In this document: positions 29,927 through 42,146 of the stretch, in pieces
Position numbering within the stretch: the first letter of the stretch is position 1
Layout of the letters: every line of letters begins with the position of its first letter
Assembly: GCA_022823365.1 (NCBI GenBank)
Contig: JAJDXG010000039.1
Location: 1-64,000 of the forward strand
From: Gemmatimonadota bacterium
GTDB taxonomy: Bacteria > Gemmatimonadota > Gemmatimonadetes > Longimicrobiales > Gaopeijiaceae
Length of the DNA stretch: 64,000 nucleotides
Direction: 5' to 3'
Program-made: the position numbers and the translations under genes
The notes under the pieces: generated by a model
What the model was told of the DNA's origin: nothing
The model's input: only the letters and a program-made list of their open reading frames with translations
Database searches by the model: none

Positions 29927-31135
29927 CTACCGGTCCGGGCCGATCCTCCTCACCGCCACCTCTCCGGCGGGATCCCGGGCCACCACGAGATCGGCGGGTA
30001 CGCCCGGCCCGATCCGCGCGCTCCCGTCCGGGGCGCGATGCCCCTCGCCGGCCACCACGAAGAGTCCGTTGGCCGCGACGGTCTCATGGGCTTCCTGGTC
30101 GCCCAGGTCGCCCACCTCCACGATGGTCGGGCCCGAGGGCGTCAGGGGGTCGTCGTACTCGATGAGCACGTCGGCCACCATCGGCGGAAGGCCCGGCGCG
30201 ATGAGCGTCCCCCCGGCGAGCAGGAGGTCGCTCACCATGCGCCCGTTGGGAGGCAGGCCGCCGTAGAGGGCGAGGTCGGCCTCCAAATAGCTGCCGTCGG
30301 CGATCGCGGCGAGCGCCGAAAGGATGCCGACGAAGTTCACCATGCGAAGATGTTGCTTCTGCGGATCGCCCGGCCATCCCCCGGACTCGATGAGGATCGT
30401 GCTCGCGCCCCAGGCTCCCATGAGGTCGCCGAAGGCGCGCCGGTTGAAGGCGTCGTCGTAGCGGGTGACGTGGCCGCCTACCAGCGGCTCGATCGCCCTG
30501 CGCACCACCGCGCACACGCGCATCGCCGCGCGCCGCCGCTCGCTGACCTCGCCTTCGTCACTGTGGGCCGGCGCCAGGAGCGCGAAGGCCGCCATGCGGT
30601 CGGAGTCCCCGACGCGAAAACGCGGGCTCTGGTCGTGCAGGTTGAAGCCGAAATCAGGCCGTATCCGGTCGTGCACCGACTTGAGCGCGCGTCCTTCGGG
30701 GGTGGCGAGGCGTCGGGCATCCCGGTTCACGTCGATCCCGGCCGCGTTGTGGCGCTGAAAGCGGGCCGCGCCGTCGGGGTTGAGCATGGGAAGGAAATGG
30801 AGGCGCAGGCGGCGGGACAGCGTCCGAACCAGAGCGTTTTCCGGGTGCCCGGCGATGAGCGAGAAGATGTCCGCCAGCGCCATGGTCGCGGTGCTCTCGT
30901 CCCCGTGCATCTGGGACCAGGCGAGCACCCCCACCTCACCCTCACCGAACGACACCATGCGGAGCGGTCGTCCCTGGGCGCTCTCGCCCACTGTCTCGCA
31001 CGCCAGCGCCGCACTGCCGTTCAGGATGGGGTCGAGGATGGTCCAGTAGGCGTCTGGACCGAAGCGTCGCTGATCGAGCCCGCTCACGCGCGCGGTGTCA
31101 TGGAGTGCGCACAGCTCCGTGGTGAGTTTCGGCAC
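29927..31135 (-). CDS. M14-family zinc carboxypeptidase-like protein
   Basis: 402 residues, no evident signal peptide. Metal and catalytic motifs: QMHGDESTATMAL (HxxE), LNPDG, the NVNRDAR-type IDVNRDA arginine, FNLHDQ histidine and the catalytic Glu in ILIESGGW. This is the arrangement of the M14 carboxypeptidase and succinylglutamate-desuccinylase-like group. A C-terminal domain of ~110 residues (from about 290) with a LIAPGLPP...DVLIEYDDPL segment resembles an amidohydrolase-like beta sandwich. Substrate unknown. Confidence 0.85.
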   Translation of the reverse strand: MPKLTTELCALHDTARVSGLDQRRFGPDAYWTILDPILNGSAALACETVGESAQGRPLRMVSFGEGEVGVLAWSQMHGDESTATMALADIFSLIAGHPENALVRTLSRRLRLHFLPMLNPDGAARFQRHNAAGIDVNRDARRLATPEGRALKSVHDRIRPDFGFNLHDQSPRFRVGDSDRMAAFALLAPAHSDEGEVSERRRAAMRVCAVVRRAIEPLVGGHVTRYDDAFNRRAFGDLMGAWGASTILIESGGWPGDPQKQHLRMVNFVGILSALAAIADGSYLEADLALYGGLPPNGRMVSDLLLAGGTLIAPGLPPMVADVLIEYDDPLTPSGPTIVEVGDLGDQEAHETVAANGLFVVAGEGHRAPDGSARIGPGVPADLVVARDPAGEVAVRRIGPDR

Positions 31136-31600
31136 CGGCTCGGCTCTTCGAAATCGGTTCTCGATAGGGGGTTGCCGGGGCTGACCCGTAGGTCGTCGAA
31201 CGGCAGGCGCTGAATAATGGCGGCATCTTTGCTGTGCTGTCCAGGCGCCGGTCGCGGTGCGCGCGTCTGCGAGCGAGTGAGCGGATATACCGGCGGCTGC
31301 CGGTGACCGCCGGTGTATACTGGCGCGGGATCAGGACGAGCTCTTGCGGCTAGCCGGTGGCGCCGACGCAGTCGTACTCGAAGCCGAGGAGCTGTTGCCT
31401 GTTCTTCCCGTCGTCACCCTCCCATAGGCCCGCCGTGAAGCAACGCGCCTTGGCGCGACCGCGCAGCGCGCTTGGGTCGGATGGGGCCGGGGCCGTACCC
31501 GATCCACCCTGAGCCAGAAAGGCGGTGAAGAGCGCACGTAGACCTTGATCTCGGCAAGGCCGCGTATATCAGGTGAGGACTGACTTGTACAGACTATACC
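31136..31600. other. 465-base gap: startless reading frame and a hairpin
   Basis: On the minus strand an open frame from 31568 to a TAG at 31350 encodes 72 residues with protein-like composition (ALFTAFLAQGG..., GLWEGDDGKNRQQLL, GFEYDCVGATG at the end), but it has no ATG, GTG or TTG, so I treat it as a gene remnant. Beyond its stop, 31289-31314 forms a hairpin with 8-bp arms ACCGGCGG/CCGCCGGT. Nothing else is recognisable. Confidence 0.4.
31350..31568 (-). pseudogene. Possible gene remnant without start codon
   Basis: See the surrounding gap. The frame is bounded by a TGA at 31569-31571 and ends with TAG. It lacks any usual start codon, and I cannot match it to a family. The ending GFEYDCVGATG suggests a genuine former C-terminus. 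Confidence 0.3.
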
Positions 31601-32686
31601 CTACCGCGTACCAAAGACGCGCACCTGAGGGAACGGTTCTTCGCCATAAGTGAAAATGAGCCCATCTCTCACGGAGCCGACCACTCCAACTGTGGGGTGC
31701 CTATCAATCACTCGCCCCGATGATACATCCAGGACGATGAGTTCGTGACGCCGGTTCTCCGCAGAGCGGGGGCCTTCGATTTGAAGCCCAAGCACCACGT
31801 TACCGCCACGATCCACAACGACCGACTTGCCTGAGTGCGAGAAGCCCTCTTCCGGGTCCGGACGATACCGGCAGCACACGCCGGGTCTGCTTGCCGTGAG
31901 CTGCCAGGGAACGTAGCCTTCGAGCGTCGTTTCCCAGAGTATCTCTCCCTCGGGGTCGAAGGCTCGAACCACCGGTACCATCCAATTGAACTTCACGATC
32001 GTTCGAGTAGCTTCATCGCACGCGAGGTAACCGTAGTTGAGCATATGCGGTGTCTGCCCCAGCTCACGACGTTGGGCAGCCTCTCGCGGCTCCTCGGGGC
32101 TCGCAAAGCCCCGAATCACCTGGCCGTCACTGTCGATCTCGCTGATCGTGGGATCAGTTGTCCCTCCGGGCTGGCGCAGAACGTACCGTCGTCCTCCGAG
32201 TACACAAACGTCCGTTGGAGGGAACCTCAAAGTTGTCACCGTCCTGAAGGCAAGAGTGTCACCATCGAGTTCGAAGGTGCTGATCCGCCCGTTGGCGACA
32301 TCCGCGACGTGAAGAACCCCTTCCGAATCGAGATCAGAGCCACGAATGCCCAGGAGCTCTCGAGGGCCCTGCCCTCGCCGCCGGTATGAAGTGATGTGAC
32401 CGCCGTCTCGATCGAATACGTGAATATCGGAGGTCTGCTCCCCCAGAACGTAGACGTTGCCGGCGGCGTCTACCTCGATCGTGCGGAGAAGACCGAACAC
32501 CTCGGCGTCGTTGCCGTCCAACCGTCCGATCGTCATCTGCAGATCCGCCGGCTCCCACAGCTGAGCCGTCACGGGTTCGACCAGCGGGGTGGACGCAATG
32601 GACGCGACGACGCCAAGCAGCGTTAGGGCATGACGCTCCAAGCGGAACAGATGGGTACTACGCATGCCACGCAATTGAGAACTCAT
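31601..32686 (-). CDS. Secreted 6-bladed beta-propeller protein
   Basis: 361 residues (ATG 32686; a Met at residue 8 is an alternative). Signal peptide with cleavage after VTAQ. The body has NHL-like blades: IEVDAAGNVYVLGEQTSDIHVFD, DLDSEGVLHVADVANGRISTF, VVDRGGNVVLG. Such propellers (6-bladed beta-propeller family) are common secreted proteins of unknown ligand in Gemmatimonadota and Bacteroidota. Its ATG overlaps the stop (ATGA) of the broken DsbA-like frame, so both were probably one operon with an export or redox role. Confidence 0.78.
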   Translation of the reverse strand: MSSQLRGMRSTHLFRLERHALTLLGVVASIASTPLVEPVTAQLWEPADLQMTIGRLDGNDAEVFGLLRTIEVDAAGNVYVLGEQTSDIHVFDRDGGHITSYRRRGQGPRELLGIRGSDLDSEGVLHVADVANGRISTFELDGDTLAFRTVTTLRFPPTDVCVLGGRRYVLRQPGGTTDPTISEIDSDGQVIRGFASPEEPREAAQRRELGQTPHMLNYGYLACDEATRTIVKFNWMVPVVRAFDPEGEILWETTLEGYVPWQLTASRPGVCCRYRPDPEEGFSHSGKSVVVDRGGNVVLGLQIEGPRSAENRRHELIVLDVSSGRVIDRHPTVGVVGSVRDGLIFTYGEEPFPQVRVFGTR

Positions 32687-33033
32687 GGGGCTACCCTCCG
32701 GATCGCGGTCTCGAGTTCCAGCGAGTCCACGACGCCATAAGCCATTACGCCGTTTACCAGAATCGTCGGTGTTCCCTGTGCACCGAGTCCCATGGCAGCA
32801 GCAAAGTCATTTTCGATGGAGGGTACCGGTGACTCATCCGCCAGGCAAGCATCGAAGGCGGCCATGTCCTGAATCCCGGCCGTGACGGCGAACCACTCGA
32901 TGGCGAACCAATTCGTATCGGCGAGCAATGCGCGGTGGAACGGCCAGAAACGACCCTGGTCTCCTGGACACTGAGCGGCGCGGGCAGCGGCGTACGAGAA
33001 GTCGTTAAGCGGAGAATGGCGAGATGCCAGCCG
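32683..33033 (-). pseudogene. 5'-truncated DsbA-like thioredoxin-fold protein
   Basis: The remaining ~115 residues correspond to the helical insert and C-terminal half of a DsbA-type thioredoxin protein: HSPLNDFSYAAARAAQC...GRFWPFHRALLAD, then the cis-proline strand GTPTILVNGVMAYG. The N-terminal strand and the CxxC active site are absent; their place is taken by the end of the NamZ-type gene (33035), whose own C-terminus is normal. No start codon precedes the conserved part in this frame. I conclude that a deletion joined the two genes and left a dead fragment. Confidence 0.65.
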
Positions 33034-33034
33034 G

Positions 33035-34357
33035 TCAGTACAGCAGATACCCTTCTCGAACCTGCAGGAACTCGTCCAGGTCCGGCTGCCACGGGGCGCG
33101 CACCTCCTGCAGGGAGGCGCCCGCCTCAACCGCCAGCCGCAGGCGGTCGGTGCCCGCGAGCCGGTCGAAGGCAGCTTCGCGCCATTCCCACCGATCGCCG
33201 GAGAGCGCCGCAGCTTCGATGAGTGCAGCCACGGCAGCCTCGGTGGGGTCGTAGCCCGGATCGGTGGCGACCAGCCGGACGCCTCCCACCTCCACTCCGC
33301 CGTGCTTGCCGTCGCCGGGGTTTTCCGGCACGAAGCGAGCCGCCTCGAAGCGCACCCCGGCGATGCCGTAGCCGTTCAGGCTCGCGGCCAGCGCCTCCCC
33401 GTCCAGCCACGGCGCTCCGATCTGCTGAAAGGCGATGGGCGTGCCCCGGCCCACGGACAGGTTGGTCCCTTCAAACAGGCAGGTGCCCGGATAGTGGCGG
33501 GCGCTCTCCACCGACGGCATGTTCGGCGAGGGCGCCACCCACGGCAGCCCGGTGTCGCCGAACCCGTCGCTCCGGCTCCATCCCGAGAGCGGAGCCACGC
33601 CCAGCTCCACGCTCACCCCGAACTCGCCCTGGAAGAGCCGCGCCAGCTCCCCGGGGGTCATCCCGTGCCGCATGGGGATCGGGTACATCCCCACGAAGGA
33701 GGCGAACGCGGGATCGAGCACGTTCCCCTGAACTTCGACCCCCCCGATCGGGTTGGGCCGGTCCAGCACCACGAAGGGGATCCCGGCCTCTCCGGCCGCC
33801 TCCATCGCCAGCGCCATGGTGTAGACGTAAGTGTAGTAGCGTGCGCCGATATCCTGGATGTCGAAGAGGAGCACCTCGACCCCGTCCAGCATCTCCGGGG
33901 TCGGCTTGCGGGTCGCTCCGTAGAGCGAGTGGATCGGCAGCCCCGTGCTCGGGTCCATTCCGCTGTCGACCAGTTCCCCGGCTTCGGCCTGGCCCCGGAT
34001 GCCGTGCTCCGGAGAATAGAGCGCGACCAGCTCCAGGCGCGCGTCCCCGTGCAGGAGGTCGATGGTCGAGACGCCCTGGCGGTCGATGCCCGTGTGGTTG
34101 GTGACGAGCCCGGCGCGGAGACCCTCCACCAGGTGGATCGAGTCCGCGAGCAGGACTTCGATGCCGGGGCGGGTTTCACCGGCCACCTGCTCGGCGACGC
34201 CGGGACCGGGTTCACCGGCTGCCTGCGCGGCAAGGCCGGGAGCGTCCGCGCCCGGCTCGCGCCCGCCCCGCACGATCAGATTGGCGCCGAGGAGCACCGC
34301 GCCCGCGACGACCAGGCCGGCACCGACCCGCGATTGTCGCATCCTTGCGGAAACCAT
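33035..34357 (-). CDS. namZ: NamZ-type exo-beta-N-acetylmuramidase (DUF1343)
   Basis: 440 residues from ATG 34357 (ATG 34342 also possible). An N-terminal membrane segment (VGAGLVVAGAVLLGANLIV) and a Gly/Glu/Ala linker precede the DUF1343 domain. Landmarks of the NamZ/YbbC family: AGLVTNHTGIDRQG, YSPEHGIRGQAEAGE, SLYGATRKPTPEML, DIQDIGARYYTYV, and the closing FLQVREGYLLY. The enzyme removes non-reducing terminal MurNAc from peptidoglycan fragments outside the cytoplasm. It is divergent from the NagZ operon with 86 bases between, the likely shared control region. Confidence 0.92.
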   Translation of the reverse strand: MVSARMRQSRVGAGLVVAGAVLLGANLIVRGGREPGADAPGLAAQAAGEPGPGVAEQVAGETRPGIEVLLADSIHLVEGLRAGLVTNHTGIDRQGVSTIDLLHGDARLELVALYSPEHGIRGQAEAGELVDSGMDPSTGLPIHSLYGATRKPTPEMLDGVEVLLFDIQDIGARYYTYVYTMALAMEAAGEAGIPFVVLDRPNPIGGVEVQGNVLDPAFASFVGMYPIPMRHGMTPGELARLFQGEFGVSVELGVAPLSGWSRSDGFGDTGLPWVAPSPNMPSVESARHYPGTCLFEGTNLSVGRGTPIAFQQIGAPWLDGEALAASLNGYGIAGVRFEAARFVPENPGDGKHGGVEVGGVRLVATDPGYDPTEAAVAALIEAAALSGDRWEWREAAFDRLAGTDRLRLAVEAGASLQEVRAPWQPDLDEFLQVREGYLLY

Positions 34358-34443
34358 TACCTTGCGCCAGTCCTCGATTCCAGCAGTCCCATGGGTGGTC
34401 GGCGGGCTGTCAACTTCGTCCGGGGGGAAGAAGTCGTCAACCG

Positions 34444-36465
34444 GTGCTTGCGCTGAATAGTCGGGCGACGTCCGGTTCGCGCCGCGCGCCGCCTCTTCGC
34501 ACGGCGGGTCTCGCCTCCCTCCTGGCGCTCGTTCCGATCGTTGTCTCCTGCAGCACCCCGCCGTCGGGCCGCGGCTTGCCCGAGGCATCCGCGCCGACGG
34601 AGGCCGCGGGACCGGAAGCAACCCCTGCGGCTGGCAACACGGCACCTCCTTCGGCCGGCCGACCGGCTCCCCCTTCCGCGGGTTCTGCCGCCCCCACCGT
34701 GGTTGCAACGCCTGCCGGGCCGGCCCGAGTCGTCAGCGAAACATCGACCCCCGGTTCTCCGGTCTCCCCAGAAGCACTCGGCGCCTGGGCATCCCCCGTA
34801 TTGGAGTCGATGACCCTCGAGGAGAAGGCGGGCCAGTTGCTGATGCCCTGGATGCTCGGCGACTTCGCGCCCGCGGGCTCCGAGGACTTCGAGCGCATGG
34901 CCGAGGCGGTGCGCGATGACGGGGTCGGGGGGGTGATCGTGTCGGTGGGCTCTCCCTCGGAGGTGGCCGCCAAGATCAACAACCTGCAGTCGCTGGCGAA
35001 GTACCCGCTGCTGGTTGGGGCGGATCTGGAGAGCGGGGCCGGATACCGCATGCGCGGGGCGGTCTACCTGCCCAACAACATCGAACTGGGCGGCGCCACC
35101 CTGTTCCCGTCGCTCATGGCGGTGGGCGCCACGGGCGACGACAGCCTGGCCTGGGAGATGGGCCGCGTCACCGCCGTCGAAGCGCGCGCCGTGGGCGTCC
35201 ACCTCCCCTTCGCGCCGGTGCTGGACGTCAACAACAATCCGGACAACCCGGTCATCGCGACCCGCTCCTTCGGCGAGGACCCCGCGGAAGTGGCCCGGCT
35301 CGGTTCCGCGTTCGTGCGCGGGCTTCAGGAGCACGGCGCGATCGCGACCGGCAAGCACTTCCCGGGCCACGGCGACACCGGAGTGGACTCCCACGTGGAT
35401 CTGCCGGTGATCCGCGTGGACCGGGAACGTCTGGACCGCGTCGAGCTGCGTCCCTTCCGCGCGGCGGTCGATGCCGGCATGGGCGCCGTCATGAGCGCGC
35501 ACGTCTCCATCCCCTCCGTCACCGGCTCCGTCTCGATGCCCAGCACCCTGTCACCCGCAGTCCTCTCCGACCTGCTCCGCGGGGAGATGGGATTCGAGGG
35601 CCTGATCGTGACCGACGCCATGAACATGGCCGCGATCACGCGCCGATTCGGGGCCCGCGACGCGGTCGTGCGCGCGCTCGAGGCCGGCGCCGACATCATC
35701 CTCATGCCCGAAGACCCCCGCGAGGCGCGAGAGAGCCTGGTCGCCGCGGTCCGCTCCGGCCGCGTCAGCGAAGCGCGCCTGGACCGCTCGGTGGGCCGCA
35801 TCCTCGAGCTGAAGGAGCGCATGGGGCTCGATCGCGAGCGCTACACGGACATCTTCGGGATCCACCGCAAAGTCGGGATCCCGGAGCATGTGGAGAGGGC
35901 GACGGAGATCGCCGAGGCATCCATTACCCTCCTGCGCAACAGCCGCAACCTGCTCTCGCTGCGCGGAACCCGCACCGCGAACGTCCTTTCCGTCACCTAC
36001 CGCGCTCGCAACAACCTGCTCGCCGGACGCTACTTTAACGATCGCGTGCGCGAGACCTACCGGCGGCTGCGCACGGCGTACCTGGACTCGGGCGTCGCCG
36101 ACAGCGAGTACACGCGCCTGCTCGCGCGCGCCTCCCGCTCCGACCTGGTCATCGTGTCCGCGTACGTAGCCGCGGCCCGCACCGACGGCAGACCGAACCT
36201 GCCCGAGGCCCTGTCCGACTTCGTCGAGACCCTGGCGGAGCGGCGCGTGCCGCACATCGTCATCTCCTTCGGCAACCCCTACCTGCTCTCCGATGTCCCC
36301 GAAGCCCAGGCCTACATGCTGGCCTGGAGCGCATCGGAGGTGAGCCAGATCGCCGCCGCCCGGGCACTCTTCGGGGAGATCCCCATCCGCGGGCGCACGC
36401 CCACCGGTCTCCCGTCCCTCTTCGATATCGGAGACGGGATCCAGTTGCCTGTCAGGGGGAGGTGA
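34444..36465 (+). CDS. nagZ: NagZ-like GH3 beta-N-acetylhexosaminidase, lipoprotein
   Basis: 673 residues from GTG 34444. Lipobox PIVVSC, then a Pro/Ala/Ser-rich linker of about 90 residues. GH3 barrel with the NagZ signature KHFPGHGDTGVDSHVDLPV (His/Asp pair acting as acid/base) and the nucleophile Asp in LIVTDAMNMAAI. A C-terminal GH3 domain (about 500-673) makes it resemble the long secreted NagZ of Bacillus rather than the short cytoplasmic enzyme of enterobacteria. Expected role: cleaving GlcNAc from GlcNAc-MurNAc-peptide fragments. It overlaps the next gene by GTGA. Confidence 0.93.
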   Translation: MLALNSRATSGSRRAPPLRTAGLASLLALVPIVVSCSTPPSGRGLPEASAPTEAAGPEATPAAGNTAPPSAGRPAPPSAGSAAPTVVATPAGPARVVSETSTPGSPVSPEALGAWASPVLESMTLEEKAGQLLMPWMLGDFAPAGSEDFERMAEAVRDDGVGGVIVSVGSPSEVAAKINNLQSLAKYPLLVGADLESGAGYRMRGAVYLPNNIELGGATLFPSLMAVGATGDDSLAWEMGRVTAVEARAVGVHLPFAPVLDVNNNPDNPVIATRSFGEDPAEVARLGSAFVRGLQEHGAIATGKHFPGHGDTGVDSHVDLPVIRVDRERLDRVELRPFRAAVDAGMGAVMSAHVSIPSVTGSVSMPSTLSPAVLSDLLRGEMGFEGLIVTDAMNMAAITRRFGARDAVVRALEAGADIILMPEDPREARESLVAAVRSGRVSEARLDRSVGRILELKERMGLDRERYTDIFGIHRKVGIPEHVERATEIAEASITLLRNSRNLLSLRGTRTANVLSVTYRARNNLLAGRYFNDRVRETYRRLRTAYLDSGVADSEYTRLLARASRSDLVIVSAYVAAARTDGRPNLPEALSDFVETLAERRVPHIVISFGNPYLLSDVPEAQAYMLAWSASEVSQIAAARALFGEIPIRGRTPTGLPSLFDIGDGIQLPVRGR

Positions 36466-36470
36466 GGGGC

Positions 36471-39400
36471 GTGAAGAACGCAAGGCGGGTGCAGCCGGCA
36501 GGGCCACCTCCAGGGCGGGTTCATCCCGCAGGGCCGGCTCCAGGACGGGTCGAGATTGCCGTCCGATGGCCGCGGCCCGTCGCGTTGCTCCTCCTGCTCG
36601 CTGTCACGGCAGCCTGCCAGGGCCCGCCTCAGGACTCCGGCGGAGCGGAGGGATCGCCTGCGGCCCTCTACTACGATGAACTCGACGGCCGGGCGAGTAC
36701 ATGGGTGGATGAGACGCTCGCCTCGCTCTCCCTCCGCGAGCGCATTGCGCAGCTCGTGGTTCCCTGGATCCCCGGCGGGTACGCCTCGTCGAGCGACGCA
36801 AGCTTCCGCACGCTGGAGCGATGGGTGACGGAGGACGGGATCGGAGGGGTCGTCATCTCGATCGGCTTGCCCCACTCCTACGCCTCGCTCCTTAACCGGC
36901 TCCAGAATGCCGCCCGCGTTCCGCTGCTGGTCACCGCGGACTTCGAGAACGGCGGCCCGGGGATGCGCGTCAACCACTCCTACGCGCTTCCCACCCTGCT
37001 CCCTCAGGGCGGTGGCGCCAGCTTCCCGCCCACGATGGCCTTCGGGGCCATCGGCGATCCGGCCTTCGCCCACGAATACGGGCGCATCACGGCGGTGGAG
37101 GCGCGCGCTCTCGGCGTGCACCTGAACTTCGCCCCGGTTCTCGACGTCAACTCGAATCCCGAGAACCCCATCATCAACACCCGTGCCTTCGGCGAGGACC
37201 CGGAGGCGGTGGCGCGGCTGGGGACGGCGTACATCGAGGGCGCGCGAGAGGGCGGCGTGCTCACCACGGCGAAGCACTTTCCGGGTCACGGCGACACCCG
37301 CACCGACTCGCACATCGAGCTCCCGATCGTGACCGCGGACAGGGAGCGCCTGGAGGCGATGGAGCTGGTGCCCTTCCGGCGGGCCGTGTCGGCCGGCGTG
37401 GACGCAGTGATGACGGCCCACGTCGCGGTGCCCGCCATCCTGGGCAGCGACGTGCCGGCGACGCTGTCGCCCTACTTCCTCACCGACCTCCTCCGCGAGG
37501 ACATGGAGTTCGATGGCCTGATCTTCACGGATGCACTGAGGATGGGCGCGATCTCGCGCGGATACGGAGCGGGAGAGGCGGCGGTGCTGGCCCTTGAAGC
37601 CGGCTCGGACGTGCTCCTTGTGCCGGAGGATGTGGGCGAGGCCATCGACGCGGTGGAGGTCGCGGTGCGCACGGGCCGGGTGGCCCGCGAACGCATCGAC
37701 CGGTCGGTGCGGCTGCTGCTGGCCGCCAAGGCGCGGGTGGGACTCCACGAGCGCCGAACCGTCGACCTGGCGGCCGTGCCCGAGGTGGCGGGTTCGGCCC
37801 GCCATCTCACCTTCGCCGACCTGGCCGCCGAGCGCTCCGTCACCCTGGTGCGCGACCGCGGCGGCCTGGTGCCGCTCCCCCCCGAAGCCCGCGGCCGGGT
37901 GGTGAGCGTCACCTACGCCCGCAACCAGGACCTCATCGCCGGGCGCGAGTTCGACCGGGTGGCGGCGCGCTTCGTGGACGGCTTCCGGAGCCTGCGCCTC
38001 GACGAGGGATCGGATGCGGCGGCGTACCAGGCGGTTCAGGCGGCGGCGCGCGATGCGGACGTGGTGCTCCTGAACGTGTACGTGCCTCCCTTTGCGGGAG
38101 CGGGCTCGGTGGCGGTTCCGGATGCGCTGCGCGAGATGGTGCGCGAGCTGTCCGCGCGCGGCGCGGTGGTGGTCTCCTCCTTCGGCAATCCCTACTCGCT
38201 GAGCGCTTTCGAAGACCTGGGCAGCTACCTCATCGCCTGGGGCAGCCACGAGGTCTCCCAGCGCGCCGGGGCCTTCGCGCTCATGGGGGCCGCGGACATC
38301 TCCGGCACGCTCCCCATCAGCATTCCGCCCGACCACCCGGCGGGGGACGGGCTCCGCAGGGACGCGCTCCCGGAACAGGCGGCGATCCGGGACGCCGTGA
38401 TGGCCGTGCCGTCGTGGGTCGTGCAACCGCTGGAATTCGTGACGGCCGCGGGCGCCGGCGATCAGGCACAGGAGGCACAGGGACAGATCTCCCCGCTCGA
38501 GGGCGACCCCGCGGCCGCGGGGATGTCGGCGGCCGTGCTGGAGGCGCTCGACCGCCGTATCCTCGCCGCCATCGCCGACTCGGCCAGCCCGGGTGCCGCA
38601 CTTGCCGTCGTGCGCCACGGCCAGTTGGTGCGCCTGCGCGGCTACGGCCGCCTGGACTGGGATCCCGCGTCCGCTCCCGCCACCCCCTCCTCCATCTACG
38701 ACATGGCTTCGGTCACCAAGGTGATGGGCACCACCACGGCCGCCATGATCCTGGTGGACGAGGGCCGCCTCGATCTGGACGCCCCCGTGGTGCGCTACCT
38801 CCCGTGGTGGTCGGCGGGCGACCCGCGCAAGGAGGCGGTCACCGTGCGCCAGTTGCTGCTCCACCGGGGCGGGCTGCCTCCATTCCGCCGCTTCTTCCTG
38901 GAGATGGAGGGCGTGGAGGCCTACCAGCAGGCCATCGCCGAGCTGCCCCTCGACTACGCGCCAGGCGACAGCACTGTGTATTCGGACATCGGCATGATGA
39001 CGGTGGCGTGGGCGATCGAGGAGATCACGGGCCAGCCGCTGGACGGCTTCCTGAGCGAGCGCGTGTGGGGACCGCTCGGCATGCAGGACACCGGCTTCAG
39101 CCCCGACTCGGCGCTGCACGGGCGCGTGGCCCCCACCGAGATCGACGCCGACTACCGGGGCGTCCATGTGCGCGGGGTGGTCCATGACGAGAACGCATTC
39201 GCGGTGGGGGGCGTGGCCGGCCACGCCGGCCTCTTCTCCTCCGCGCGCGACATCGCGGTCTACGCGGCCATGATGCTCGACGGAGGCCGCGCCGGCCCCT
39301 GCGACGGAACGCCGGCCACACCCTGCAGCGCCCCTCGCCCCGGGACGGTGCGCGTCGTCGAGCCTGCCACGGTGGACGACTTCACCCGCCGCCACGACGC

Positions 39401-39668
39401 CGGCGCGAGTCGGGCCACCGGCTGGGACACCCCCTCCGGCAACTCCTCGGCAGGACGGTTCTTCACCGGGCGCGCCTTCGGCCACACCGGCTTCACCGGC
39501 CCCTCCGTGTGGATCGACCCCGAGCTGGACCTGGCCGTGGTGCTGCTCCTGAACCGGGTCAACCCCACGCGCGAGAACAGCCGGCACGTCCCGCTGCGCC
39601 GCGAGATCCACGACCTCGCCGCCCAGGCCGTCATAGACCTCGACATCGAGCCACGGCCTCCTTCGTGA
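36471..39668 (+). CDS. NagZ-like GH3 hexosaminidase fused to AmiE/class C beta-lactamase-fold hydrolase
   Basis: About 1065 residues (GTG 36471, GGGGGAGG nine bases upstream; GTG 36462 overlaps the previous stop). Signal/lipobox LLLLLAVTAAC. Residues about 60-640: GH3 with KHFPGHGDTRTDSH (K268 on) and nucleophile region LIFTDALRMGAI plus a C-terminal GH3 domain. Residues about 680-1060: serine beta-lactamase/DD-peptidase fold with S747-V-T-K750, Y-S-D in the second motif and GHTGFTG as KTG-like third motif. In Bacillus, separate adjacent genes encode NagZ and AmiE, a MurNAc-L-alanine amidase of this very fold. The fusion would remove GlcNAc and then the peptide from a muropeptide. Confidence 0.92.
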   Translation: MKNARRVQPAGPPPGRVHPAGPAPGRVEIAVRWPRPVALLLLLAVTAACQGPPQDSGGAEGSPAALYYDELDGRASTWVDETLASLSLRERIAQLVVPWIPGGYASSSDASFRTLERWVTEDGIGGVVISIGLPHSYASLLNRLQNAARVPLLVTADFENGGPGMRVNHSYALPTLLPQGGGASFPPTMAFGAIGDPAFAHEYGRITAVEARALGVHLNFAPVLDVNSNPENPIINTRAFGEDPEAVARLGTAYIEGAREGGVLTTAKHFPGHGDTRTDSHIELPIVTADRERLEAMELVPFRRAVSAGVDAVMTAHVAVPAILGSDVPATLSPYFLTDLLREDMEFDGLIFTDALRMGAISRGYGAGEAAVLALEAGSDVLLVPEDVGEAIDAVEVAVRTGRVARERIDRSVRLLLAAKARVGLHERRTVDLAAVPEVAGSARHLTFADLAAERSVTLVRDRGGLVPLPPEARGRVVSVTYARNQDLIAGREFDRVAARFVDGFRSLRLDEGSDAAAYQAVQAAARDADVVLLNVYVPPFAGAGSVAVPDALREMVRELSARGAVVVSSFGNPYSLSAFEDLGSYLIAWGSHEVSQRAGAFALMGAADISGTLPISIPPDHPAGDGLRRDALPEQAAIRDAVMAVPSWVVQPLEFVTAAGAGDQAQEAQGQISPLEGDPAAAGMSAAVLEALDRRILAAIADSASPGAALAVVRHGQLVRLRGYGRLDWDPASAPATPSSIYDMASVTKVMGTTTAAMILVDEGRLDLDAPVVRYLPWWSAGDPRKEAVTVRQLLLHRGGLPPFRRFFLEMEGVEAYQQAIAELPLDYAPGDSTVYSDIGMMTVAWAIEEITGQPLDGFLSERVWGPLGMQDTGFSPDSALHGRVAPTEIDADYRGVHVRGVVHDENAFAVGGVAGHAGLFSSARDIAVYAAMMLDGGRAGPCDGTPATPCSAPRPGTVRVVEPATVDDFTRRHDAGASRATGWDTPSGNSSAGRFFTGRAFGHTGFTGPSVWIDPELDLAVVLLLNRVNPTRENSRHVPLRREIHDLAAQAVIDLDIEPRPPS

Positions 39669-39774
39669 TCCTCCGCGACCGGCTCCTCGTCGGCCCCAGC
39701 ACTGTCCACGTCGCGGCTTGGCCATCCCGGACCGAGCACCCGCGCGTGGACGGCACCCGGTCAACAGCCCTCCC

Positions 39775-41232
39775 GTGAGCGGCTTCGGGGGCGTCGACCT
39801 GGCGGTACTGGTGGCCTATCTGGCCGCCACCACCGCCTGGGGCGCCTGGCTGGGCCGCCGCCAGCGGGGCGGGGCGGACTACTTCCTGGGGAACCGCAGG
39901 CTGCCCTGGGGGGCGGTGCTGCTGTCGGTGGTGGCCACCGAGACCAGCACGCTGACGTTTCTCTCCATCCCCGGGGTGGCGTACCTGGGCACCCTGGGCT
40001 TCCTGCAACTGACCTTCGGATACCTGGCCGGCCGGCTGGTGGTCGCGTCCCTCTTGCTGCCCGCCTACTACCGCGGCGAGCTCAAAACCGCCTACGCGCT
40101 CCTGGGCGCCCGCTTCGGCAGCGGGGTGAGGCGCCTCACCTCGGCGATCTTCATGGTGACCCGGCTCCTCGCCGATTCCGTGCGCCTCTTCGCCACCGCC
40201 ATCCCGCTCGCGCTGGTCACCGGCTGGCCCTACCCGCTCTCCATCCTGGTGATCGGGGCGCTCACGGTGGTCTACACCTACTTCGGCGGCATCAAGGCGG
40301 TGGTCTGGGTGGATGCCGTGCAGATGGCGCTCTACCTGTTGGGCGCGGCCATCGCCGTCGTCGTGCTGCAGGGGCTGGTGGATGGGGGATGGGGGGCGAT
40401 CCTCTCGCAAGCGGGAGCGGCAGGCAAGCTCCGCATCCTGGACCTGTCCCTCGACTTCTCGGTGCCCTACACGCTGTGGGCGGGGCTGCTGGGCGGCGGC
40501 TTCCTGGCGATGGCCTCCCACGGCACGGATCAGCTCATCGTGCAGCGACTGCTCACCTGCAAGGACTTGGCGGCCAGCCGCAGGGCCCTCATCGGCAGCG
40601 GCGTCGCGGTGGTGGGCCAGTTCGCCGTCTTCCTGCTGGTGGGGCTCGGCCTGTGGGCCTTCTACGAGAACCGCGCCTTCGCTGCCTCGGACGAGATCTT
40701 CGCCCGCTTCATCGTCGAGGAGCTTCCCCCCGGGGTCACCGGGTTGCTGATTGCGGGCGTGTTCGCGGCGGCGATGTCGTCGCTCTCCTCCTCCATCAAC
40801 TCGCTGGCGTCTTCCTCCGCCTACGACTTCTGGGCCCCGGCCCGTGGCATCGACGACGACGCGCGCATTCTGCGGGCCGGCAAGCTCTTCACCCTGATCT
40901 GGGCCGGGCTGCTGGTCGGAGGCGCGATCCTGTTCATCCCGCTGAGCACCGGCACAAGCGCGGTGGAGGTCGCCCTCGCCGTCGCCTCGCTGGTGTACGG
41001 CGGGCTGCTGGGTGCGTTCGCGCTGGGGGTGTTGTCCCGCCGCGCCACTGCGGGGGGAACGGCAGCCGGTATGGTGGCCGGGATCGGCACGGTGACGGCC
41101 ATCTGGATCCTCGCGCCCGACCGCGTGGCGTGGCCCTGGTTCGTGCTCATCGGGACGGCGATCACGGTGGTGGTGGGGATGGCAGTGGGTGGGTCACGGT
41201 CGCGGTCGCCCGCAGAAGCCCCCCGCCCGTGA
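39775..41232 (+). CDS. Sodium:solute symporter (SSS family), candidate amino-sugar importer
   Basis: 485 residues from GTG 39775. Thirteen or so membrane helices starting LAVLVAYLAATTAWGAWLG; SSS landmarks include RRQRGGADYFLGNR, ETSTLTFLSIPG (Na-site Ser/Thr), and AAMSSLSSSINSLASS. It sits between the hexosaminidases and the sugar kinase and overlaps the kinase by GTGA. In Tannerella the MurNAc importer MurT next to kinase MurK is of this transporter type, so MurNAc or GlcNAc is the likely substrate (inference from context). Confidence 0.88.
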   Translation: MSGFGGVDLAVLVAYLAATTAWGAWLGRRQRGGADYFLGNRRLPWGAVLLSVVATETSTLTFLSIPGVAYLGTLGFLQLTFGYLAGRLVVASLLLPAYYRGELKTAYALLGARFGSGVRRLTSAIFMVTRLLADSVRLFATAIPLALVTGWPYPLSILVIGALTVVYTYFGGIKAVVWVDAVQMALYLLGAAIAVVVLQGLVDGGWGAILSQAGAAGKLRILDLSLDFSVPYTLWAGLLGGGFLAMASHGTDQLIVQRLLTCKDLAASRRALIGSGVAVVGQFAVFLLVGLGLWAFYENRAFAASDEIFARFIVEELPPGVTGLLIAGVFAAAMSSLSSSINSLASSSAYDFWAPARGIDDDARILRAGKLFTLIWAGLLVGGAILFIPLSTGTSAVEVALAVASLVYGGLLGAFALGVLSRRATAGGTAAGMVAGIGTVTAIWILAPDRVAWPWFVLIGTAITVVVGMAVGGSRSRSPAEAPRP

Positions 41233-42146
41233 CCGGACCGTACGTCGCGGGCGTCGACGGGGGCGGCACCCGCACCCGCGTCCTGCTGCTCGCCCGCAAC
41301 GGCGCGACCGCCGGCCGTGCCGAAGGCCCCGCCGCCCTGGTGCGTCCCGACCGCCCCGGCGCCGCGGCCCGGGTGGTCGCCGACACGGTACGCCGCGCCG
41401 CCGAGGCGGCCGGGGCGGCCCTGCCGCTCCCGGCGGTCTGGGCAGGACTGGCAGGTGCCGGCCGGGCGAGCGTGCGCCGCGCCCTGGAGGCGGGCCTGCG
41501 CGACGAGCACATCGCCCGCACTGTACGGGTCGGCACCGACGTGCAGGCGGCCTTCCACGACGCCTTCGGGGCCGGTGCGGGCATCGTGGTGGTGGCCGGC
41601 ACCGGCTCGGTGGTGCTGGGTGCGGGCGAAGACGGCCGCCGCCTGCAGGTGGGCGGATGGGGCGCGGTGATGGGCGACGAAGGGAGTGGCTACCACATCG
41701 GCGTGTCGGCCCTGCGGGCCATCGCGACCGCCACCGACCGACGCGCCCCCCCGACCGCCCTCACCGCCGCCGTGCTGGGATCCCTCGACCTCGACCGGCC
41801 GCGCCAACTTTCCGCCTGGGCCGAGTCCGCCACCAAGGCCGACATCGCCGCCCTCGCGCCCCTCGCGATCCGCACCTCCCGTTCCGGCGACGCCCCCGCC
41901 ACCGCCGTGGTCCGGCGCGCGTTGGGCGCGCTCGGAGACCAGCTCACCGCCGCCATCCGCGAGCTCTTTCCCCCCGCATCCGGCGTCAGGCCCACGGTCG
42001 CGCTGGCCGGCGGCCTCGTCTCGCCGCATGGTCCCCTCCGCGCCGATGCGGAGCAACTCGTCGCCTCCGCCGGCGGCCACCTGCTCTCGGGCGCCGTCAC
42101 CCCCGAACGCGGCGCCGCGCGCCTGGCTCTCGCCCTCCCGGACTGA
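41229..42146 (+). CDS. BadF/BadG/BcrA/BcrD-family sugar kinase (MurK/GlcNAc kinase-like)
   Basis: 305 residues from GTG 41229. ASKHA fold: phosphate-1 GVDGGGTRTRVLLL, phosphate-2 VVAGTGSVVLG and GDEGSGYHIGVSAL, adenosine motif ALAGGLVSPHG. The family includes N-acetylglucosamine kinase and the MurNAc kinase MurK of clostridia and Tannerella. It phosphorylates the sugar after import. No sugar-phosphate etherase (MurQ) or deacetylase (NagA) follows in the window. Confidence 0.9.
   Translation: MTGPYVAGVDGGGTRTRVLLLARNGATAGRAEGPAALVRPDRPGAAARVVADTVRRAAEAAGAALPLPAVWAGLAGAGRASVRRALEAGLRDEHIARTVRVGTDVQAAFHDAFGAGAGIVVVAGTGSVVLGAGEDGRRLQVGGWGAVMGDEGSGYHIGVSALRAIATATDRRAPPTALTAAVLGSLDLDRPRQLSAWAESATKADIAALAPLAIRTSRSGDAPATAVVRRALGALGDQLTAAIRELFPPASGVRPTVALAGGLVSPHGPLRADAEQLVASAGGHLLSGAVTPERGAARLALALPD

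Follow-up and report, generated by a model that had tools for sequence, protein, structure and literature searches.

A cluster of five genes at positions 33,035 to 42,146 of the stretch studied here (the window: 64,000 nucleotides of contig JAJDXG010000039.1 from a Gemmatimonadota bacterium, GCA_022823365.1) appears, at a probability of roughly three in four, to encode one half of a pathway for murein amino sugars, the half concerned with the envelope and with import. Judged from the translated sequences, peptidoglycan fragments are very probably cut to single sugars outside the inner membrane and then imported and phosphorylated. Features of the sequences indicate that a NamZ-type exo-beta-N-acetylmuramidase, a NagZ-type beta-N-acetylglucosaminidase and a NagZ-AmiE fusion are exported or lipid-anchored, that a sodium:solute symporter (SSS) resides in the inner membrane and that a BadF/BcrAD-type kinase is cytoplasmic. 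From what is known of these families, three steps would take place outside the inner membrane: NamZ would remove the terminal N-acetylmuramic acid (MurNAc) together with its peptide, NagZ would remove N-acetylglucosamine (GlcNAc) and the AmiE domain would remove the stem peptide. The SSS would take in free MurNAc and GlcNAc with sodium, and the kinase would convert them to MurNAc 6-phosphate (MurNAc-6P) and GlcNAc 6-phosphate (GlcNAc-6P). MurQ would turn MurNAc-6P into GlcNAc-6P. In this genome, as in many of its relatives, a NagB-PIG-L fusion protein would take off the acetyl group with its PIG-L half, in place of an undetected NagA, and deaminate the glucosamine 6-phosphate (GlcN-6P) to fructose 6-phosphate. 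In this lineage, uptake of single sugars by the SSS would stand in for the uptake of anhydro-disaccharides by AmpG. The analysis does not tell recycling of the cell's own wall apart from scavenging of foreign walls.

All five genes were found where the first-pass annotation had placed them and are of the types it had given. The NamZ gene is on the reverse strand (33,035 to 34,357, ATG at 34,357) and its product begins with a hydrophobic export segment. Both the N- and the C-terminal NamZ domains score over their cut-offs, as is diagnostic of the family (PF07075, 283.6 bits against 26.9, E 9e-85; PF20732, 148.2 bits against 25, E 4e-43), and its PDB relatives include 4k05 (E 2e-86) and 4jja (E 1.5e-56). 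The other four genes are on the forward strand. The NagZ-type gene (34,444 to 36,465, start uncertain) encodes two glycoside hydrolase family 3 (GH3) domains (PF00933, 302.2 bits, E 6e-90; PF01915, 38.5 bits), a lipobox (...VPIVVSC) and, in the translation, the motif KHFPGHGDTGVDSH. In the fusion (36,462 to 39,668; lipobox ...AVTAAC; KHFPGHGDTRTDSH and SVTK in the translation), GH3 domains (PF00933, 276 bits, E 6e-82; PF01915, 35.3 bits) whose PDB relatives are GH3 N-acetylglucosaminidases are followed by a class-C beta-lactamase/PBP4B-like amidase domain (PF00144, 212.7 bits, E 1e-62). Both GH3 translations contain KH(F)PGHGDT..DSH, which we take to be the Asp-His (histidine) motif of NagZ, and the AmiE-type domain keeps, as SVTK, the SxxK that is presumably the nucleophile motif of a beta-lactamase-fold amidase. 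Because lipobox signals stand at their N-termini, NagZ and the fusion are predicted lipoproteins with a location outside the inner membrane.

The SSS gene (39,718 to 41,232, starting with TTG at 39,718 or GTG at 39,775) matches PF00474 (107.8 bits, E 8e-31) and belongs to the SSS superfamily by TIGR00813 (206 bits, cut-off 184). The best PDB match of its product, a putative MurNAc/GlcNAc importer, is 5nv9, a 'putative sodium:solute symporter' (E 1e-44). The kinase gene (41,229 to 42,146), whose start shares the bases GTGA with the SSS stop, is the sole PF01869 match in the genome at E 0.001 (98.1 bits, cut-off 31.5) and encodes a candidate murein amino-sugar kinase, probably acting on both MurNAc and GlcNAc. 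The tight overlaps that had been described throughout the cluster are found at two junctions only, NagZ/fusion (36,462-36,465) and SSS/kinase (41,229-41,232), each of 4 bases; fusion and SSS are separated by 49 or 106 bases, according to which SSS start codon is used, and the chosen starts of the divergent NamZ and NagZ genes are 86 bases apart. The genome (3.82 Mb, 63 contigs, 98% complete) has Gemmatimonadota as its nearest named contigs, and the sequence data support the earlier view of a cluster that would degrade muropeptides and import and phosphorylate the sugars in a GC-rich diderm, the host being a member of this phylum.

The gene order is conserved to a greater degree than chance would produce. 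In a sample of 20 regions from other genera, some of which end at a contig end, all domains (NamZ, NagZ, fusion NagZ, AmiE, SSS and kinase) stand in the window's order in 10, and the SSS adjoins the kinase in 19, the remaining region (from the genome designated G051) having the kinase alone. Protein identity to the window is about 38-75% in other genera and is lowest for the kinase. The survey set comprised 98 Gemmatimonadota genomes, including that of the window (G000), and the kinase was found in 86 of these (E 0.001). Its surroundings were usable in 79, after three genomes in which a cut kinase fragment was not refound (G017, G047 and G058) and four with fewer than 700 bases upstream were set aside, and in 57 of the 79 the SSS lies next to the kinase on the same strand. 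Where more than 6.5 kb of upstream sequence was present (58 genomes), an AmiE-type domain lies within 9 kb of the kinase in 50 and NamZ in 28. The kinase gene is also a weak spot of the assemblies among G002, G003, G008 and G010: the contig ends inside it in three, and it contains Ns in the fourth.

The first-pass annotation regarded the locus as a self-contained system lacking only the etherase, and proposed a genome-wide search for murQ, nagA and nagB. The search recovered murQ, which lies beside anmK on another contig (L016:8533-10651, reverse strand; MurQ 347.6-348.2 bits against a cut-off of 302, AnmK 419.6 bits). The etherase is thus present elsewhere in the genome rather than missing, and the cluster is not self-contained; MurQ exceeds its cut-off in 90 of the 98 genomes. 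The search did not recover nagA in this genome: the best of 66 candidates, all of them scored, reached 29 bits against a cut-off of 225.65, a Gemmatimonadota NagA query (from G051) gave no match among the 19 of 55 candidates scored, and the genome's amidohydrolases showed only short partial matches to NagA (best 47.8 bits, 30 of 50 matches compared). Across the survey set, NagA exceeded its cut-off in one genome, G051, a lower bound with at most 17 candidates scored per genome, and a protein search with the G051 sequence, which scored no more than 19 candidates in any genome, agreed in finding two, its own source and G054. Bacillus subtilis has NagA, and the first of these two surveys missed this control at 1e-20, so absence in the relatives could be overstated. 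Used in tblastn, the G051 NagA does recover NagA-like genes from Bacillota, at six loci with identities of 33-41%. As for nagB, the only copy that passes the cut-off in this genome is part of a NagB-PIG-L fusion (NF002557/PRK02122, 863.7 bits, cut-off 384; PF01182 plus PF02585), located at L166:459-2594 on contig C28, reverse strand, beside tRNA-His and tRNA-Arg genes; one weaker NagB-like gene is also present.

NagB-PIG-L exceeds its cut-off in 54 of the 98 genomes. Of the 51 that encode the kinase as well, 29 have the two genes on one strand and no more than 1.8 kb apart. This count is probably too low, because contig ends interrupt the clusters of G041 and G070, where fragments of the fusion adjoin the SSS. 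In one family (f3) it stands directly beside the kinase in 19 of 20 genomes, and elsewhere the spacing leaves room for the SSS between them. In G015 and G018 the whole set (NamZ, NagZ, NagZ-AmiE, NagB-PIG-L, SSS and kinase) occupies one locus, with NamZ divergent in the former and on the same strand in the latter, while G028 has everything except NamZ, where its contig ends. One further genome, G078, retains a NagB-PIG-L remnant at the kinase locus, and G022 a shorter one. The motifs HPDD and PHGTH, which we take to form the zinc (metal) site of PIG-L, are invariant in 30 rows, representing 27 distinct loci once duplicates are removed. From the linkage, the chemistry of the domains and the near-absence of NagA, we infer that GlcNAc-6P is deacetylated by the PIG-L half, which would take over the role of NagA. 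In its full form, the proposal is that among the Gemmatimonadota searched classical NagA is almost absent, and that a kinase-tied NagB-PIG-L carries out both GlcNAc-6P deacetylation and GlcN-6P deamination, as a non-orthologous replacement of NagA within a periplasmic, AmpG-free muropeptide pathway; we hold this to be slightly better than an even bet.

A rival reading of the wider pathway, possible if less likely, is that NagB-PIG-L is not a GlcNAc-6P deacetylase at all: PIG-L would act on some other amino sugar, and GlcNAc-6P would pass directly to UDP-GlcNAc or meet an unrelated deacetylase. It draws on the 38 of 98 genomes in which MurQ exceeds its cut-off and neither NagA nor NagB-PIG-L does; these must do something else. 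They also count against our own proposal, in that NagB-PIG-L cannot be the only way out for GlcNAc-6P. Within the genus of the window, moreover, the fusion lies on another contig and is linked to the kinase in none of 10 genomes, the PIG-L half has weak matches, far below cut-off, to the bacillithiol-pathway deacetylase models BshB1 and BshB2 (30.3 and 27 bits), and a mycobacterial route with GlcNAc and without glucosamine intermediates is proposed in the excerpt of PMC13041923. This account sits poorly with the tight kinase linkage in the 29 genomes, with the fusion of PIG-L to a GlcN-6P deaminase domain, with the invariant zinc-site motifs and with G051, the only genome with NagA over cut-off and one without the fusion. 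The few solved matches of the PIG-L half include diacetylchitobiose deacetylases, a weak resemblance (E about 9e-4 over about 50 residues) that also favors deacetylation of GlcNAc-6P by NagB-PIG-L.

Decayed remnants of NagB-PIG-L were seen in genus g13 at L152:11914-12756 and L146:11635-11994 (reverse strand), between the AmiE and SSS genes. Read by eye, they run into a start resembling that of a symporter, a pattern suggestive of deletion. A stand-alone PIG-L gene in G078 was considered and rejected, as the remnant, again by eye, continues into the beginning of a symporter-like frame and has lost the zinc motif.

For the kinase, the first-pass annotation had named Tannerella MurT/MurK among its precedents. 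The best solved relative by sequence is instead 8zo3 (phmmer E 2e-25; 24-26% identity), MurK of Clostridium acetobutylicum, named N-acetylmuramic acid/N-acetylglucosamine kinase by its depositors. A structure predicted from 20 sequences (mean predicted local distance difference test score, pLDDT, 94.3) likewise has 8zo3 as its best match (VIA Z 34.5, root-mean-square deviation 2.2, 298 aligned), with lower Z values for S. tokodaii hexokinase (30.9), human NAGK (30.7) and the Tannerella MurNAc kinases (22-24), among rows from which some families may be absent. By sequence and by this model, the kinase is closest to the C. acetobutylicum MurNAc/GlcNAc kinase and not to Tannerella MurK, and a modelled fold shared with 8zo3 is no proof of substrate. 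T103-D104 and GGWG...GDEGS match human NAGK at the level of sequence alignment only; the excerpt of PMC10465942 names residues that exclude MurNAc and considers human NAGK compatible with it.

The surroundings of the kinase's relatives also speak for a role in murein sugar metabolism. The best 80 of at least 580 were kept, comprising 13 loci from Gemmatimonadota (a mislabelled record included) and 67 from outside the phylum. In the stretches fetched around these 67, MurQ is present at 36, AnmK at 15 and NamZ at 13; at least one of MurQ, AnmK, NamZ, NagZ and AmiE is present at 48 and none at 19. We estimate that in about 0.5% of genomes of 4 Mb a randomly chosen gene would have a given single-copy gene, such as murQ, no more than 10 kb away. 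A tree was built from the window's kinase and 79 of the 80 loci, the other being too short; it groups the Gemmatimonadota kinases in a single clade (99/92). The next branch is one Pseudonocardia row, long-branched and lacking these genes (90/77), followed by MurQ-linked Planctomycetes kinases (85/69). The tree thus places the phylum among these outside loci, although its nearest rows there are weakly supported. For the kinase, a firm placement with unrelated sugars, named beforehand as an outcome that would speak against the cluster's role, was not seen. The closest record of all, L056 (JAPPHB010000003.1), is labelled Gammaproteobacteria, carries the cluster at 86-96% identity and is probably a mislabelled metagenome bin.

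It is conceivable, though doubtful, that the importer and kinase serve GlcNAc only, with MurNAc leaving with the peptide or entering solely as anhydro-MurNAc for AnmK, and that the cluster feeds on the GlcNAc of peptidoglycan. The sole NCBIfam match of the kinase is the GlcNAc kinase model NagK_SO3507 (85.7 bits, far under the cut-off of 370); human NAGK and Chromobacterium NagK are among the structures nearest the model, and AnmK beside MurQ offers a source of MurQ substrate that needs no MurNAc kinase. Substrate restricted to GlcNAc is nevertheless hard to reconcile with a MurNAc-releasing NamZ beside the operon in 28 of the 58 genomes, with a dual MurNAc/GlcNAc kinase as the best match, with MurQ at more than half of the outside loci among the relatives kept, or with the failure to find in this genome the AmpG that would import anhydro-disaccharides. 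Finally, a locus for chitin or another GlcNAc polymer, built from generic GH3 enzymes and a promiscuous beta-lactamase-fold esterase, is very improbable even though GH3 and PF00144 are broad families and the characterised fusion RmNag3 acts on acetyl-chito-oligosaccharides (PMC6987092, excerpt), given both diagnostic domains in NamZ, the histidine motif of NagZ in each GH3 gene, a Pfam scan of cluster proteins that showed no chitinase, and the linkage of the kinase relatives to MurQ and AnmK.

The distribution of AmpG bears on the proposed import of both sugars by the SSS. In this genome AmpG was not found (no match at E 1e-10, one candidate scored), nor was it found at that threshold in any of 11 genomes of the window's genus. 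It exceeds its cut-off in 17 of the 98 genomes, 16 of them in family f3, and lies within about 5.5 kb of MurQ in nine of the 17; weaker matches occur in two more genomes, G049 and G073. Among the 79 genomes with usable surroundings, 57 have only a kinase-adjacent SSS, 15 have only AmpG over its cut-off, seven have neither and none has both. At the f3 kinase loci (for example L220 and L223-L226), the kinase is mostly directly beside NagB-PIG-L with no SSS, and in G089, the one f3 genome with a kinase-adjacent SSS, AmpG was not found. These data suggest that single-sugar uptake by the SSS and uptake by AmpG are alternatives within one phylum.

Several observations weigh against the pathway as drawn. 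The exclusion of AmpG and SSS is nearly confined to f3, and because of this the genomes concerned are not independent; G073, moreover, has a kinase-adjacent SSS together with an AmpG-like match under the cut-off (122.8 of 350 bits). For these two reasons the exclusion is suggestive and not proof. The seven genomes with neither AmpG over its cut-off nor a kinase-adjacent SSS count against the scheme as well. Lipoboxes occur in all three NagZ-type proteins checked from AmpG-bearing f3 genomes as well, which implies that an exported NagZ can coexist with AmpG and that export alone does not force uptake by the SSS. Neither NagZ (178.9 bits) nor the fusion (174.1 bits) reaches the cut-off of 207 for the NCBIfam NagZ equivalog PRK05337, so that by sequence the two GH3 proteins are to be called NagZ-type and not PRK05337 equivalogs. 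The kinase likewise stays far under the cut-off of its NCBIfam model, NagK_SO3507. No sigma-70 consensus match was found between 33,000 and 42,500, a weak test at this GC content.

In Bacillus subtilis, NamZ, NagZ and AmiE carry out muropeptide rescue outside the cytoplasmic membrane without AmpG. The participation of NagZ and AmiE in this rescue is stated in the excerpt of PMC6987092. The Gemmatimonadota cluster is predicted to place the same three hydrolase activities outside the cytoplasmic membrane, again with no AmpG found, whereas it belongs to a diderm, has NagZ doubled with one copy fused to AmiE, and has an SSS and a separate kinase where B. subtilis uses transporters of the phosphotransferase system (PTS). 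The use of an SSS instead of a PTS, emphasized in the first-pass annotation, is not new: MurT of Tannerella forsythia is an SSS-type MurNAc importer, and together MurT and MurK enable an E. coli murP mutant to grow on MurNAc (PMC5790795, excerpt). The murTKQ system of T. forsythia resembles the present one in combining such an importer with a murein sugar kinase and MurQ, and in clustering other wall-recycling genes (excerpts of PMC5790795, PMC10465942 and PMC7670621). It differs in that murQ here lies elsewhere, beside anmK, in that the kinase here is nearer C. acetobutylicum MurK, and in that Tannerella has an AmpG, which was not found here.

The fusion type is not new either. RmNag3 of Rhodothermus marinus has the same architecture within one protein (GH3 N- and C-terminal domains and a C-terminal beta-lactamase domain), and is described as an exported NagZ from a genome reported without AmpG (PMC6987092, excerpt). 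The fusion in the window sits with NagZ, SSS and kinase, while the same excerpt reports RmNag3 without adjacent glycoside hydrolase genes and gives its predicted transcript as including a 'putative ATPase'. The kinase has its best sequence and fold match in C. acetobutylicum MurK, at only the low identity given above, and its substrate is predicted. Compared with recycling of the E. coli type, MurQ and AnmK are present in this genome, whereas AmpG and NagA were not found. The NagB-PIG-L protein scores well above the cut-off of a family annotated 'glucosamine-6-phosphate deaminase-like protein' (NF002557/PRK02122). Taken together, B. subtilis, Tannerella and RmNag3 hold counterparts of all five genes, which the Gemmatimonadota cluster combines in a new way.

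Other features of the region may be noted. The divergent interval between namZ and nagZ (34,358 to 34,443, as set by the chosen starts) probably contains both promoters. Downstream of namZ and on the same strand, 29,930-33,126 (reverse) encodes a thioredoxin-like protein, a six-bladed propeller protein and an M14 carboxypeptidase; the last has a weak match to MpaA and may process stem peptides. The gene next to the kinase on its 3' side encodes an aspartokinase-homoserine dehydrogenase in the window's own genus, though not in the other genera examined. Between 40 and 44 kb of the window, GC content is 0.729 and AT skew is -0.158.

Peptidoglycan recycling in Gemmatimonadota is barely mentioned in the open-access literature searched, in which no paper was found that names PRK02122 or that joins PIG-L with glucosamine-6-phosphate deaminase. 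The genes described here give the phylum a proposed route, almost complete and open to testing, that leads from fragments of the wall into central metabolism. If NagB-PIG-L does replace NagA, the large set of MurQ-bearing genomes without either enzyme would suggest that GlcNAc-6P has a fate yet to be described. Ultimately, the apparently unstudied but widespread NagB-PIG-L family gains a precise proposed function.

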